NCBI GenBank assembly: GCA_018613055.1 | Contig: JAGGQZ010000001.1 | Location: 152,348-216,347, forward strand | DNA length: 64,000 bases | Direction of reading: 5' to 3' | Origin: Chryseobacterium sp. ISL-80 | GTDB taxonomy: Bacteria; Bacillota; Bacilli; Bacillales; Cytobacillaceae | In this document: positions 8,621-40,769 of the stretch, in pieces | Numbering within the stretch: position 1 is the stretch's first letter | How the letters are laid out: each line of letters begins with the position of its first letter | Notes under the pieces: generated by a model | What the model saw: the letters and a program-made list of their open reading frames with translations, nothing else | The model's database searches: none | Told to the model about the DNA's origin: nothing | Translations under genes and position numbers: made by a program

Positions 8621-8666
8621 CTTCTTGCCGATACATAATAAAGAACATAACTAGGGGAAATTGGAT

Positions 8667-9437
8667 ATGGAAAAATGGACAATTGGCGAAATTGATCAGG
8701 TGCTATTCAGTAAAGAGAAAGTGGATAGGGAATTCATTGAGGAATTAAAAAAAGACAACCGCAAAGGTGTTCAAAAACTCATCATGAAATGGGAGAAGCA
8801 AGAAGCGCAAAAAGAACTGATCCACAGGCAGTTCGTTGAGATGACATCTTTTGAAAGGAAGTATCGGTCCCAGGGTTTCAGGTTTCTTGCCGGTATTGAT
8901 GAAGCCGGCCGCGGACCGCTAGCTGGCCCGGTTGTAGCTGGGGCAGTCATCCTGCCGGAGGATTTTTACCTTCCGGGCCTCAATGATTCTAAGAAACTGA
9001 CAGAAGCGAAAAGGGAAGAATATTTTAAAATCATTAATGACCAAGCTCTTGCTGTCGGTATTGGAATCATCGAAGCTGCCGAAATAGATGAAATCAATAT
9101 TCTTGAGGCGAGTAAAAAAGCGATGCTCCATGCGGCAGCCCAATTGGAAATTAATCCTGATTTTCTATTGATTGATGCAGTCAAGCTGGTGACACCTTAT
9201 CCCTTTGAAGCATTAATCAAAGGAGATGCCAGAAGCATCTCCATAGCCGCGGCTTCGGTCATTGCAAAGGTGACAAGGGACCGGCTGATGAAGGAGCTGG
9301 GTCTTCGATTCCCGCAATATGGCTTTCAGGCAAATATGGGTTATGGAACTGCTGAGCATTTGAATGCCCTGAGAGAACACGGCGTTACAGACCATCACCG
9401 GAAGACCTTCGCTCCGGTAAGAGAGTGTATTCAGTAG
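8667..9437 (+). CDS. rnhB: Ribonuclease HII
   Basis: A 256-residue RNase HII, which cuts the RNA strand of RNA-DNA hybrids and removes misincorporated ribonucleotides. An N-terminal extension of about 70 residues, normal for Bacillus, precedes the catalytic Asp78-Glu79 in GIDEAGRGPLAGPVV. LNDSKKLT, then LLIDAVKL with the third acidic residue, and SIAAASVIAKVTRDR follow. The ATG at 8667 has AGGGGA 8 bases upstream. An in-frame TTG two codons earlier is too close to that site. Confidence 0.96.
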   Translation: MEKWTIGEIDQVLFSKEKVDREFIEELKKDNRKGVQKLIMKWEKQEAQKELIHRQFVEMTSFERKYRSQGFRFLAGIDEAGRGPLAGPVVAGAVILPEDFYLPGLNDSKKLTEAKREEYFKIINDQALAVGIGIIEAAEIDEINILEASKKAMLHAAAQLEINPDFLLIDAVKLVTPYPFEALIKGDARSISIAAASVIAKVTRDRLMKELGLRFPQYGFQANMGYGTAEHLNALREHGVTDHHRKTFAPVRECIQ

Positions 9438-9459: not shown

Positions 9460-11316
9460 ATGGAAACAGGAGCGCTTAAAAGTTTATTTAACCAAAAGAC
9501 AACACAGCAAACAAAAATAACCGAATTCCGACCAGGGCAAATCATCAATGGAAAAATCATTAAGCTATACCCTGATCAAGTAGCTGAAGTTCAAATCGGG
9601 AACCAAAAAATGGTCGCCCAATTAGAAGTGCCGTTATCTGCAAATGAACGCTATTGGTTTCAGGTTCAGCCAGGAGAAGGAAAGGTCCATTTAAAGCTGA
9701 TTAGTTCAAGTGCTGAGGAGAAGGGCCAGCCAGGGAACCTGGCCAGGGTCCTGGCTGAATTCGGATTGCAGCCGACAAAGGAAAACCTGGATCTTGTCCG
9801 TTTTTTCATCAAGGAACAGCTCCCTGTCAATGGTGAGCTTCTTAAACTCGCGTCAGAATGGTTAAAATCGGCTGAATCCCGGACTGCAGGCCAGGATGCC
9901 ATAAAGATGCTGCTGACAAGGGGGATGCCTTTAACCAAGACTGCATTTGAGGCCCTTTATACAGCCACGAAGGAACAGTCGCTGGTTATGCTTATGGAAC
10001 AGCTCGGAAAGTCCCTGGAGGCAGCAGAAGACACGGATACAGTTGCAAGCCTGAAAAAGCTATTGGATGAGATGCTGCCAGCAAACAGGGCTATATCCTC
10101 TGCAGCCGCTTTGAACCATCTTGCTTCAGCTTGGCTCGGCAGCAATGGGAAGGAAAGCGAAGCCGCTTTGGGACTGCTTCAACAGTACGGAGCGATTCCG
10201 GCAAAAAGCAGTGAAAGCAATGTTTTGCAGCAGCTGTTATCGAATCTTCAAAATTTGGATGTAGAAGAAAAGAATTTGCCAGAAGGATTGAAATTTGTTA
10301 AGACTGTCTTAACGCTTATCGAGAAGGGAGACAGTTTCTCCGTACGGCAGATCATGGCAAGCTTCAACCCTGATAAATCATTTCCTGTAAACAATGTCGC
10401 AGACTCGCTTCATTTCATTTTTGACAGGACAAATGGAAAGGACACGAATGTGCAAACCGGACTCCTTGCCTTTAAACAGCTATTATCACACGCCAATGTC
10501 AACGGTGCGATGTCCTTCATACTTGCGGGGGAAGCAGACTGGGAACAAGCAGGAATAAAACTGCTGGAGGCTGCAGGAAGGCAGCAGCAAGCCCGTACAG
10601 GGGGAATGCATGCCCAGCTGTTATCGGAAGCCGCGGGCAAAGCAGAGCCGGCACCTGCACTTCAGGAAAACGGAATCTCACTTCTGTCGGATGCAAGGAT
10701 AAAAGGATATCTTTCTGCTCTGGGCCTCTCTTACGAACACCATCTTAGTGAAGTCATGAAGGAGGGCGAGGTGGGAAAAGCGCAGGTCCCAGATACACTT
10801 AAATCACTGACACTTCGATTGTTGAATGAAAATCCTCCTCAGGCTGTCAAAGACGCTGCAGAGCCGCTGTTAAATAAACTCACAGGCTTCCAGCTGCTGT
10901 CGCAGGAAGCAGGCCCAATTCAGCAGCTCGTGGTCCAGGTCCCTTTTATTCTGGGAGGGAAGACAAGTGAACTCTCGATGCAGTGGAGTGGGAAAAGGAC
11001 TGAAGATGGCAAAATAGACGCTGATTTTTGCCGTGTCCTCTTTTACCTGAAGCTACAGCACCTTGACGATACCATTATCGATATGCAAGTTCAGAATCGA
11101 GTCATGAGCATACAGATTTTTAATGATCAACCCGATCTTAAGAAAATGGCCGAACAGATGACGCCGTTATTGAAAAAAAAGTTGGCTGAATTGGATTATC
11201 AGCTGTCTGCTGTTCACTTCCATGTCCCAGGGCGATCTAAGGCTGGAAGGAATCAGCGCAGTCTATCAGAATTATATGGGCAAAAAGAATATTATGGAGT
11301 GGATATTAAAATATGA
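9460..11316 (+). CDS. ylqG: YlqG, large FliK-like protein of unknown function
   Basis: A 618-residue protein at the YlqG locus. The N-terminal ~80 residues look beta-rich (FRPGQIINGKIIKLYPDQVA). The middle is a long helical, Ala/Leu/Glu-rich region. The last ~120 residues (HLDDTIIDMQVQNRVMSIQI, then LLKKKLAELDYQLSAVHFHV) resemble the C-terminal domain of the flagellar hook-length ruler FliK in pattern. No signal peptide or membrane segment is seen. It overlaps ylqH (FlhB tail-like) by four bases, and FliK and FlhB tails are known partners, so a joint role with a type III gate is a reasonable inference. The true function is unknown. Confidence 0.8.
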   Translation: METGALKSLFNQKTTQQTKITEFRPGQIINGKIIKLYPDQVAEVQIGNQKMVAQLEVPLSANERYWFQVQPGEGKVHLKLISSSAEEKGQPGNLARVLAEFGLQPTKENLDLVRFFIKEQLPVNGELLKLASEWLKSAESRTAGQDAIKMLLTRGMPLTKTAFEALYTATKEQSLVMLMEQLGKSLEAAEDTDTVASLKKLLDEMLPANRAISSAAALNHLASAWLGSNGKESEAALGLLQQYGAIPAKSSESNVLQQLLSNLQNLDVEEKNLPEGLKFVKTVLTLIEKGDSFSVRQIMASFNPDKSFPVNNVADSLHFIFDRTNGKDTNVQTGLLAFKQLLSHANVNGAMSFILAGEADWEQAGIKLLEAAGRQQQARTGGMHAQLLSEAAGKAEPAPALQENGISLLSDARIKGYLSALGLSYEHHLSEVMKEGEVGKAQVPDTLKSLTLRLLNENPPQAVKDAAEPLLNKLTGFQLLSQEAGPIQQLVVQVPFILGGKTSELSMQWSGKRTEDGKIDADFCRVLFYLKLQHLDDTIIDMQVQNRVMSIQIFNDQPDLKKMAEQMTPLLKKKLAELDYQLSAVHFHVPGRSKAGRNQRSLSELYGQKEYYGVDIKI

Positions 11317-11597
11317 AAACTCCTAAGCATACAAGAAAGACAGCTGTTGCTCTGGGGTATAACGCGGGAAGCATGGATGCCCCAAAAGTGATGGCGAAGG
11401 GAAAGGGCCTTGTGGCTCAGCAAATCATCGAAAAAGCAAAGGATCATGATATTCCCATCCAGGAAGACCCATCATTGGTTGAAGTATTGTCGCAGCTGGA
11501 ATTAAATGAGAGAATACCAGAAGAACTGTACCAGGCAGTGGCCGAGGTTTTTTCCTATATCTATCATCTTGACCAGCAAGCAGGGAAACGAAATTAA
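11313..11597 (+). CDS. ylqH: YlqH, stand-alone FlhB C-terminal domain homologue
   Basis: A 94-residue protein aligning with the cytoplasmic tail of FlhB downstream of its self-cleavage site. TAVALGYNAGSMDAPKVMAK matches YAIALKYDEEKSDAPVVVAK of FlhB (encoded at 39684-40769), and IPEELYQAVAEVFSYIY matches IPEEFFKAVAEILAYVY. The NPTH cleavage motif and all membrane helices are absent, so it resembles the fragment left after FlhB has been cut. The start overlaps the ylqG stop (ATGA), so the two are translationally coupled. The role is unknown. Confidence 0.88.
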   Translation: MKTPKHTRKTAVALGYNAGSMDAPKVMAKGKGLVAQQIIEKAKDHDIPIQEDPSLVEVLSQLELNERIPEELYQAVAEVFSYIYHLDQQAGKRN

Positions 11598-30269: not shown

Positions 30270-30299
30270 AGAGTTGCATTTTTGAAAGGGGGTGAAAAG

Positions 30300-31544
30300 A
30301 TGGAAATTGGAGGCCTTGGATTCTTTAATAGTGTCGCAGCTGTGAAACAGCCTGCATTCGGCAAGAGTGAAATGGAAGGCGGTTTTGCTGGCATGATGGC
30401 AATGGTCCTTTCTGGAGCAAATGGCGCAAAGACTGCTGAAACACCAGGACAAGATACTAAAGCATTAGAGAGTCTGGCAGATTTGGCTGGCTTTTTAAAC
30501 ACTGAGGACCTGTTGGATTTGGAAGATGGACTGAAGCTGATGGAATCGCTTATGACAGATTCAGAAAATCTTTTAGGCCAGGCTCTTTCCCATTTAGGAA
30601 TCAGCATGGATCAAGTTCAGCTGCTTCTTCAGAAATGGTCTGGGATCAATGAGGGAAGGAAAGATAATCTTCCTGAAGATGAATTGCTGGCGTCACTTGC
30701 CGCTATCCTGGCTGGAATCGCAAATTTGCCAAAAAATGAACTCGCCGCCAGGCTTGATACCAATGATGTTGAAACCATCAAGGCTCTAAAGCTGTATGAG
30801 CTGATGTCCAAGTATGCTGATGGCTATGAATCTAAGAGCGCAGCATCACTGAAGGAGACGGTGCAGAAACTTGAGGAAACTTTGACTAGCCTTTTAAAAC
30901 CTGATAACCGAAGTGGTCAAAGTGAGTATATACAAACTCGATTTACCCAGTTAGCAAGAGAGTTAAACCTGTTAAATGCGAAAAAAACAAATTTTACAGA
31001 AGTTAATAGTTTAGCAGATACAGAACCGTCCATTAAGACGGATGGGCAAACGGGGGCTGTTACATTTCTCCCTCAAATGGGAAGGGCAGAGCAGCTGACA
31101 TTAATGATGAATAGTCCTGAAAGACCCGTTTCAGCAGAGCAATTAATGAAACAATTCGAAGCCATTCTCTCAAAATCTCAATTCATGAATAGCGGCGGAA
31201 CACAAAAGCTTTTCATAAAATTGTTTCCCGAGCACCTGGGCAGCATTCGGGTAGAGTTATTCCAAAAAGACCAGACAATGATGGCCAGGATCATTACTAC
31301 TTCCGGCACTGCAAAAGAAACATTGGAATCCCATATTAACGGTCTCAAACAGGCTTTCGCTGCACAAAACCTTTCAGTCGAGAGAATCGAAGTTTCCCAG
31401 CAGCAGGCACAACAAGAGCGGTTCTTGAATAGAGATTCCCAGCAGCAGGAAAGACAGCAGGACAACAGGGAACGTGAAAAGAAAGAAGATCAAGGGGATT
31501 TTACCCTAACCTTCGAGGAAGCACTGCTAAATACTGAAGCATAG
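30300..31544 (+). CDS. fliK: Flagellar hook-length control protein FliK
   Basis: A 414-residue secreted molecular ruler that measures the hook and switches FlhB specificity. The N-terminal ~290 residues are poorly conserved and helical. The C-terminal domain carries the conserved core LFIKLFPEHLGSIRVELFQK followed by LKQAFAAQNLSVERIEV. The tail is Gln/Arg/Glu-rich. The ATG at 30300 follows AAAGGGGGTG; an in-frame TTG upstream lies before that site. flgD follows, as expected for a hook module. Confidence 0.93.
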   Translation: MEIGGLGFFNSVAAVKQPAFGKSEMEGGFAGMMAMVLSGANGAKTAETPGQDTKALESLADLAGFLNTEDLLDLEDGLKLMESLMTDSENLLGQALSHLGISMDQVQLLLQKWSGINEGRKDNLPEDELLASLAAILAGIANLPKNELAARLDTNDVETIKALKLYELMSKYADGYESKSAASLKETVQKLEETLTSLLKPDNRSGQSEYIQTRFTQLARELNLLNAKKTNFTEVNSLADTEPSIKTDGQTGAVTFLPQMGRAEQLTLMMNSPERPVSAEQLMKQFEAILSKSQFMNSGGTQKLFIKLFPEHLGSIRVELFQKDQTMMARIITTSGTAKETLESHINGLKQAFAAQNLSVERIEVSQQQAQQERFLNRDSQQQERQQDNREREKKEDQGDFTLTFEEALLNTEA

Positions 31545-39683: not shown

Positions 39684-40769
39684 ATGAACTTTTTGAAATT
39701 GGACCTGCAATTTTTTGCTGGTGAAAAAACAGAAAAAGCGACGCCTAAAAAAAGGCAGGATGCCCGAAAAAAAGGGCAGGTTGCCAAAAGTCAGGATGTC
39801 AATACGGCGATTGTATTGCTTGCCGTATTCCTGTTTTTGATGTTTTTTGGGAAAACAATGGTTGAGAGATTGATTGGGGTTCTCCGCCATGCACTGCAAA
39901 ATTATATGTTCATGGAATTGACCGCAAATAATATAGAATCGATTGTGATTGAAATACTTGGTGAACTTGTCTTTTTCCTCGGCCCGGTGATGGCCGTTGC
40001 CTTGATTGCAGGGGTAGCCGCCAATTATATACAGGTTGGCTTTATGTTTTCCACTGAGGCTATTCAGATGAAACTGGAGAAAATTAATCCGATCAGCGGC
40101 TTTAAAAGGATTTTCTCGATGAGGGCAATTGTCGAGTTACTTAAATCAATTCTTAAGATCACCTTCATTGGAGTCATCGCTTTTTCCGTCCTTTGGCTGA
40201 GGATGGATGAAGTATTGCTGCTGGCCAATAAAAGTGTCGGTGCCGCAATCGCGACAATTGCCGGGCTAACGCTTCAAATGGGGCTTTTTGCTTCCGGAGC
40301 ATTGCTATTTTTGTCATTATTGGACTTTTTGTACCAAAAATATGACTTTGAAAAGGGTATCCGCATGTCAAAGCAAGACTTGAAGGATGAGTATAAGAAT
40401 ATAGAAGGTGACCCGCTCATCAAATCAAAGATCAAGCAGAAGCAAAGAGAGATGGCAATGCGGCGGATGATGCAAGAAGTTCCGAAGGCAGATGTAGTCA
40501 TAACGAACCCGACTCACTACGCCATAGCTTTAAAGTATGACGAAGAGAAGTCCGATGCGCCAGTCGTGGTTGCCAAAGGTGTCGATTTTGTCGCGCAGAA
40601 AATCAAATTGATTGCCAAAGAAAATGAAATCATGACTGTCGAAAATCGTCCGCTTGCCAGGGCTTTATATAGTCAGGCTGAAATCGGGGACGCCATACCT
40701 GAGGAATTTTTCAAGGCCGTGGCCGAGATTCTCGCGTATGTATATCAAACAAAAAATAAAGTGCTGTAA
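39684..40769 (+). CDS. flhB: Flagellar type III export switch protein FlhB
   Basis: A 361-residue gate and substrate-specificity switch. N-terminal region KTEKATPKKRQDARKKGQVA, four membrane helices (about 35-210), then the cytoplasmic domain with the self-cleavage motif NPTH at 275-278, which cuts between N and P. The tail after NPTH (YAIALKYDEEKSDAPVVVAK) is mirrored by the stand-alone YlqH encoded at 11313-11597. Start ATG after GGGGGA. Confidence 0.98.
   Translation: MNFLKLDLQFFAGEKTEKATPKKRQDARKKGQVAKSQDVNTAIVLLAVFLFLMFFGKTMVERLIGVLRHALQNYMFMELTANNIESIVIEILGELVFFLGPVMAVALIAGVAANYIQVGFMFSTEAIQMKLEKINPISGFKRIFSMRAIVELLKSILKITFIGVIAFSVLWLRMDEVLLLANKSVGAAIATIAGLTLQMGLFASGALLFLSLLDFLYQKYDFEKGIRMSKQDLKDEYKNIEGDPLIKSKIKQKQREMAMRRMMQEVPKADVVITNPTHYAIALKYDEEKSDAPVVVAKGVDFVAQKIKLIAKENEIMTVENRPLARALYSQAEIGDAIPEEFFKAVAEILAYVYQTKNKVL

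Follow-up and report, generated by a model that had tools for sequence, protein, structure and literature searches.

The window that we analysed is a stretch of 64,000 nucleotides from Chryseobacterium sp. ISL-80, which GTDB places in the Cytobacillaceae. It carries two overlapping genes on the forward strand, ylqG and ylqH, together with a true fliK and a true flhB further downstream. The features discussed below are the following.

8661–9437, plus strand: rnhB, conserved neighbour (RNase_HII), present in 79 of 80 loci
9460–11316, plus strand: ylqG, predicted FliK-family paralogue of 618 amino acids (open reading frame; Flg_hook match weak here, above the cut-off in orthologues; AF2 model)
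9538–9708, plus strand: YlqG residues 27–83, predicted small N-terminal beta-barrel of five strands (AF2 model, pLDDT mostly about 83–94)
9727–10902, plus strand: YlqG residues 90–481, predicted helical solenoid, very variable in length among relatives (AF2 model)
10918–11223, plus strand: YlqG residues 487–588, predicted FliK/PscP-type substrate-switch (T3S4) domain, beta-rich with helices (Foldseek, VIA-align)
11299–11313, plus strand: C-terminal pentapeptide of YlqG, VDIKI-COOH, after G613 and similar to a FliK tail (pattern search)
11313–11316, plus strand: ATGA start/stop overlap of ylqG and ylqH (sequence)
11313–11597, plus strand: ylqH, putative free-standing FlhB tail (FlhX) of 94 amino acids (Bac_export_2, E 1.4e-22; TIGR00789, E 3.1e-33; FlhX clade)
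11379–11552, plus strand: region of YlqH with residues matching the early-substrate pocket of FlhB (alignment columns; pocket according to PMC13344023)
11640–11690, plus strand: likely transcription terminator 3′ of ylqH, a strong hairpin plus T run (RNA fold −20.9 kcal/mol, z −5.1)
30282–31544, plus strand: true fliK (Flg_hook, 61.7 bits; protein ending in LLNTEA)
39684–40769, plus strand: true flhB with NPTH and membrane part (Bac_export_2, E 3e-138; translation)

The start codon of ylqH sits within the stop codon of ylqG. This ATGA overlap had been pointed out in the initial annotation and was found again in the sequence; because the four shared bases are conserved in 78 of the 80 loci compared, the overlap is more than chance. 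Only 22 bp separate the end of rnhB from the start of ylqG, and the gene order in the window is lepB-ylqF-rnhB-ylqG-ylqH-sucC-sucD; codY (22019) comes next and precedes the fla/che operon, which starts with flgB (23254). The same neighbours accompany ylqGH in 72 to 79 of the 80 loci, which come from named Bacillaceae and their relatives. The pair had been placed 12 kb from the real flhB and fliK; this had to be corrected to 28.1 kb for flhB and 18.7 kb for fliK, the start of the fla/che operon (flgB) being about 12 kb away. A consensus search of the window revealed no sigma-D consensus, and the search with defence models gave no match.

YlqH matches the Pfam family Bac_export_2 at profile positions 261–335 only, which is the part following the NPTH site, and it also matches solved FlhB tails (3B0Z, E 2.6e-14), in agreement with the alignment first proposed for it. 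The accompanying claim that the protein has neither NPTH nor a membrane part holds as well: there is no hydrophobic stretch, the highest Kyte-Doolittle mean over 19 residues being 0.47 as compared to 2.46 in FlhB. YlqH thus carries neither the membrane helices nor the NPTH autocleavage site of FlhB proper. The lack of NPTH is more than chance, since NPT was absent from all 79 Bacillaceae FlhX sequences and from all 24 FlhX sequences taken from elsewhere in the phylum. Apart from ylqH, this genome has a single family match, the full flhB. Against the NCBIfam model TIGR00789 (flhB_rel), YlqH scored 113.8 bits and missed the curated cut-off of 117.35 by 3.5 bits; of 398 genomes drawn from the phylum, no more than 2 contain a match above this cut-off. 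We therefore call YlqH FlhX-type and not a formal member of TIGR00789.

In a tree of 88 tails from within the phylum, from which H. pylori FlhX (HP1575) was left out, all FlhB tails were split from all FlhX (FastTree 0.996; IQ-TREE UFBoot 100). YlqH is therefore a paralogue of long standing rather than a copy that broke recently. What sets FlhX apart from FlhB is the loss of the PLAR loop, with a deletion of one residue, together with other class-specific positions. In Salmonella, the residues of FlhB at which early substrates dock are A286, P287, A341 and L344 (PMC13344023). The aligned residues of YlqH are A23, P24, A77 and F80; P24 is kept, and A23 and A77 are mostly kept. By its sequence, YlqH is a free-standing, pre-cut FlhB tail of the FlhX type.

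The AF2 model of YlqG, built with 40 sequences (pLDDT 83, pTM 0.70), ends in a floppy tail at residues 594–618. The full-length model had no significant match in the PDB (best E 0.007; 5CUK at rank 12 and 2RRL at rank 32), and the C-terminal part was therefore modelled by itself (pLDDT 77, pTM 0.56). Searched with Foldseek against 350,542 PDB chains, this second model retrieved PscP-SS at rank 1 (5CUK, E 0.010, prob 0.98) and FliK-C at rank 2 (2RRL, E 0.027, prob 1.00). The same two structures again came out best with VIA-align (Z 5.9 for 5CUK and 6.4 for 2RRL), which ranked Foldseek's own candidates and is not fully independent of it. Despite the moderate scores, the ranking of two solved switch domains ahead of all other chains would be hard to explain by chance, and the prediction for the C-terminal domain of YlqG is a switch domain of the FliK/PscP type. 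The initial annotation had described this part as FliK-like; the structural comparison with FliK C-terminal domains supports that description through the predicted fold of residues 487–588, while the sequence of this single protein stays below threshold.

The score of YlqG against Pfam Flg_hook was 19.6 bits (E 8e-4), short of the gathering cut-off of 29.8 bits. Flg_hook matches were seen in 13 of the 40 YlqG sequences, the best with E 3.4e-6, and three Bacillales orthologues at the YlqG position (G064, G072, G073) exceed the cut-off; it is also reached at this position in loci L182, L194, L197, L202 and L207. Profile-profile comparison of YlqG with Bacillales FliK gave no clear match (E 0.07), though in the correct register. 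The relatives of YlqG range from 244 to 756 amino acids. The short forms (G025, G030 and G049; 244–254 amino acids) match just the N-terminal barrel and, at the other end, the switch part; the solenoid therefore seems dispensable. Positions 9736–9861 of the window (YlqG residues 93–134) match DUF6240 weakly, as is the case in 11 of 40 YlqG and in a few proteins upstream of FlhX elsewhere; the DUF6240 family may contain YlqG relatives. In B. subtilis, ylqG P457Q is among the mutations of clones from swarming evolution, where it co-occurred with other mutations (PMC11523185).

The extreme C-terminus provides a further likeness: YlqG ends in GVDIKI-COOH and E. coli FliK in GVDIFA-COOH. A C-terminal motif of the form hydrophobic-[DNES]-hydrophobic-x-hydrophobic was present in 80 of 80 YlqG, compared with 1 of 677 other open reading frames, and in 20 of 25 phylum-wide proteins encoded upstream of FlhX. 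FliK proteins of the phylum outside the Bacilli carry tails such as VDYLA and INYLA, and for Salmonella FliK an action of the five terminal residues on the FlhB tail has been proposed (PMC13344023). The true FliK of the window ends in LLNTEA, and the classical pentapeptide is missing in most Bacillales FliKs. A tighter pattern, set after inspection of the data and giving descriptive counts in which related genomes were counted apart, matched FliK in 3 of 60 FlhX-bearing Bacillales versus 5 of 7 FlhX-lacking Bacilli. Because of this separate counting of related genomes, the difference between FlhX-bearing Bacillales and FlhX-lacking Bacilli is a lead and not a test. The stricter proposal that the FliK tail was lost wherever YlqG exists was weakened by G035, G038 and G043, where FlhX occurs alongside a FliK with the classical tail, and by genomes of other classes, which often have both. 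These three genomes and G039, G057 and G059, all Bacillales and some without FlhX, possess a FliK of a different kind, in most cases longer, whose tail is classical and IDFTA-like; their flagellar operon may belong to another lineage.

The two proteins co-occur. FlhB was found in 95 of 101 relatives. Of these 95, 89 encode YlqH-type and YlqG-type proteins together, six encode neither (G039, G057, G059, G080, G085, G093) and none encodes one alone. These six flagellated relatives show that the pair is not essential for flagella in general. YlqH was absent from all six relatives lacking FlhB, one of which (G024) gave a weak YlqG match. The Fisher values for this co-occurrence take no account of common descent. 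Among 398 genomes drawn across the phylum, 327 had an FlhB or FlhX match, and about 231, counted by hand, had two or more. Comparison by hand also revealed, in 19 other genomes of the phylum, a second Flg_hook protein above the Pfam cut-off directly upstream of FlhX (G105, G125, G127, G134, G139, G152, G158, G165, G181, G189, G200, G207, G208, G217, G225, G241, G242, G243, G247). FlhX with a FliK-type partner therefore belongs to the phylum at large rather than to a single genus. No YlqG-YlqH fusion occurs among the FlhX frames listed. The ylqG-ylqH pair is old and tied to flagella.

About 17 relatives encode a further FlhX of another type, and six aligned sequences of this FlhX2 form their own clade. 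In six loci (L143–L148), a YlqG2 of 730–2381 amino acids and an FlhX2 of 98–99 amino acids are encoded beside FliS, flagellin and DUF327 (YaaR). Close to this second pair lie FlgN-FlgK-FlgL-FliW-CsrA or FlaG-FliD-FliS; the names other than FliS and DUF327 were assigned by recognising the sequences. The C-terminal profiles of YlqG1 and YlqG2 match each other with E 4.7e-28; the profiles of YlqG2 and FliK gave no clear match. The late-cluster copy ties this type of pair to the filament stage. One YlqG2 relative (G048, L147:1505-8650) reaches 2381 amino acids, threefold the usual size, and its gene immediately precedes those of FlhX2 and a FliS-like protein. Very long repeat proteins of at least 1360 and at least 1827 amino acids are encoded on the same strand near the second pair (L143:13918-18000 and L144:95-5578, respectively). 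The DUF327 gene recurs beside it at L144:11770-12216, L145:8885-9322, L146:5988-6425, L147:12198-12635 and L148:10845-11294, the call having been checked with Pfam for L146 and made by sequence likeness at the other loci.

We consider it somewhat more probable than not that ylqG-ylqH encodes a second module of the flagellar type III export gate, composed of a FliK-type protein and an FlhB tail and acting in trans; the identity of the two proteins, an FlhB tail and a FliK-like protein, is well supported. YlqH is a ready-cut FlhB tail, whose partner would be the switch domain and terminal pentapeptide of YlqG. YlqG may bind YlqH in the way envisaged for FliK-C and the FlhB tail, and would then either put YlqH at the FlhB/FlhA gate or remove it from there. 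The change from hook-type to filament-type export would thereby be adjusted. This reading is suggested by the homology of YlqH to the FlhB tail with the pocket largely kept, the FliK-C/PscP-SS fold predicted for YlqG, and orthologues and FlhX-adjacent proteins of other genomes above the Flg_hook cut-off. The co-occurrence with FlhB, the second pair in the late cluster, and a pentapeptide shared with classical FliKs, whose final five residues in Salmonella have been suggested as the part acting upon the FlhB tail (PMC13344023), argue in the same direction. On the other side stand the moderate fold scores (E 0.01–0.03 and Z about 6), the position of YlqG under the Pfam cut-off, the lack of a clear profile match to Bacillales FliK, the six flagellated relatives without the pair, and the housekeeping neighbourhood of ylqGH, where no sigma-D consensus was found. 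By analogy with H. pylori FlhX, it is plausible that the pair modulates switching or competes for the gate, as the initial annotation had suggested, competition being one of several possible roles.

Alternatively, YlqH might stand in for an FlhB tail that has been lost or ejected and thereby keep hook-type export going, YlqG being solely its chaperone or stabiliser. HP1575 of H. pylori sets a precedent, and the pocket residues kept in YlqH fit such a function. Loss of the tail in Salmonella also halts early export (PMC13344023). Replacement would, however, leave unexplained the FliK-type switch domain and terminal peptide of YlqG as well as the second pair next to filament genes, and we regard it as rather unlikely. 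More speculative still, and quite doubtful, is a split or resettable version of the second module: in Bacilli the switch-tripping tail would have largely passed from FliK to YlqG, with YlqH as its target, and the late-cluster pair would be the filament-stage version. With YlqH supplied in trans, a gate that FliK has emptied could be loaded again. If this were true, a change regarded as irreversible in Salmonella could be undone or carried out a second time.

Free YlqH could also act as a decoy that titrates FliK or hook-type substrates and competes for the gate, with YlqG setting the free amount. The retention of P24 and mostly of A23 and A77, yet with a different PLAR loop, makes ligand binding without gate function conceivable; but a cytosolic decoy would not need a FliK-type partner, and the strict one-to-one coupling with YlqG points to a complex, which renders this role improbable. 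We give equally little credit to the idea that YlqG is exported through the gate as a molecular ruler, for which YlqH would be the dedicated docking site. Its layout is like that of a type III ruler, with a middle of variable length (244–756 amino acids in YlqG1, 730–2381 in YlqG2), whereas the N-terminal barrel and the solenoid are predicted to be confidently folded, unlike a floppy exported ruler, and most of the middle is missing in short YlqG forms. That the two genes are a housekeeping pair of the rnhB-sucC region, with chance or relic resemblances, would suit their neighbours at nearly all loci but is very improbable and already disfavoured given the absence of YlqH from all six genomes without FlhB, the pairing conserved across the phylum and the copy inside the late flagellar cluster.

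The mechanism by which the export gate of the flagellum moves from one class of substrates to the next is a question of long standing. A paper from 2026 makes the case that ejection of the FlhB tail is how FliK trips the switch (PMC13344023), and ylqGH offers a natural test of this model. Many members of one phylum make an FlhB tail separately and coupled to its own FliK-type partner, some with a further pair beside filament genes. The second-module reading suggests a role for two uncharacterised proteins, YlqG and YlqH, and the pair is probably a second handle on the timing of the change from hook to filament export.

Free FlhB tails are already known, namely HP1575 of H. pylori, NCBIfam TIGR00789 and the FlhX of component lists. 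Wand et al. reportedly described H. pylori FlhX (HP1575) in 2006 as a 'spare part' for the FlhB tail. Like YlqH, it is homologous to the C-terminal domain of FlhB alone, stands by itself, and occurs in a flagellated bacterium that has a full FlhB too. The present case differs from it and from TIGR00789 in that ylqH is ATGA-coupled to a FliK-family paralogue, YlqH lying 3.5 bits under the TIGR00789 cut-off. FlhX is listed among flagellar components (PMC9321776, PMC10746217), and a 'flhX-fliK' gene pair is described in Nitratiruptor (PMC9321776). There too the FlhX gene lies away from the main flagellar cluster, and its neighbour is a gene named fliK; but Nitratiruptor belongs to another phylum, and the text of PMC9321776 does not say whether this fliK is a second paralogue. 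The searchable literature, which leaves most subscription papers outside its scope, yielded nothing on the function of YlqG or YlqH or on a FliK paralogue dedicated to FlhX, and a dedicated, translationally coupled one seems undescribed in it. The cleaved C-terminal domain of FlhB (FlhB-CCD) is the same domain as YlqH, which keeps the pocket residues corresponding to A286, P287 and A341; YlqH differs in being encoded by its own gene, without NPTH or membrane part, in belonging to a separate clade (UFBoot 100) and in having lost the PLAR loop. The predicted fold of YlqG 487–588 resembles Salmonella FliK-C (2RRL) and PscP-SS (5CUK), and its terminal pentapeptide is similar to that of E. coli FliK. 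In contrast to FliK, YlqG has a predicted N-terminal barrel and helical solenoid and no FliK ruler, it pairs with FlhX, and it coexists with a true FliK.
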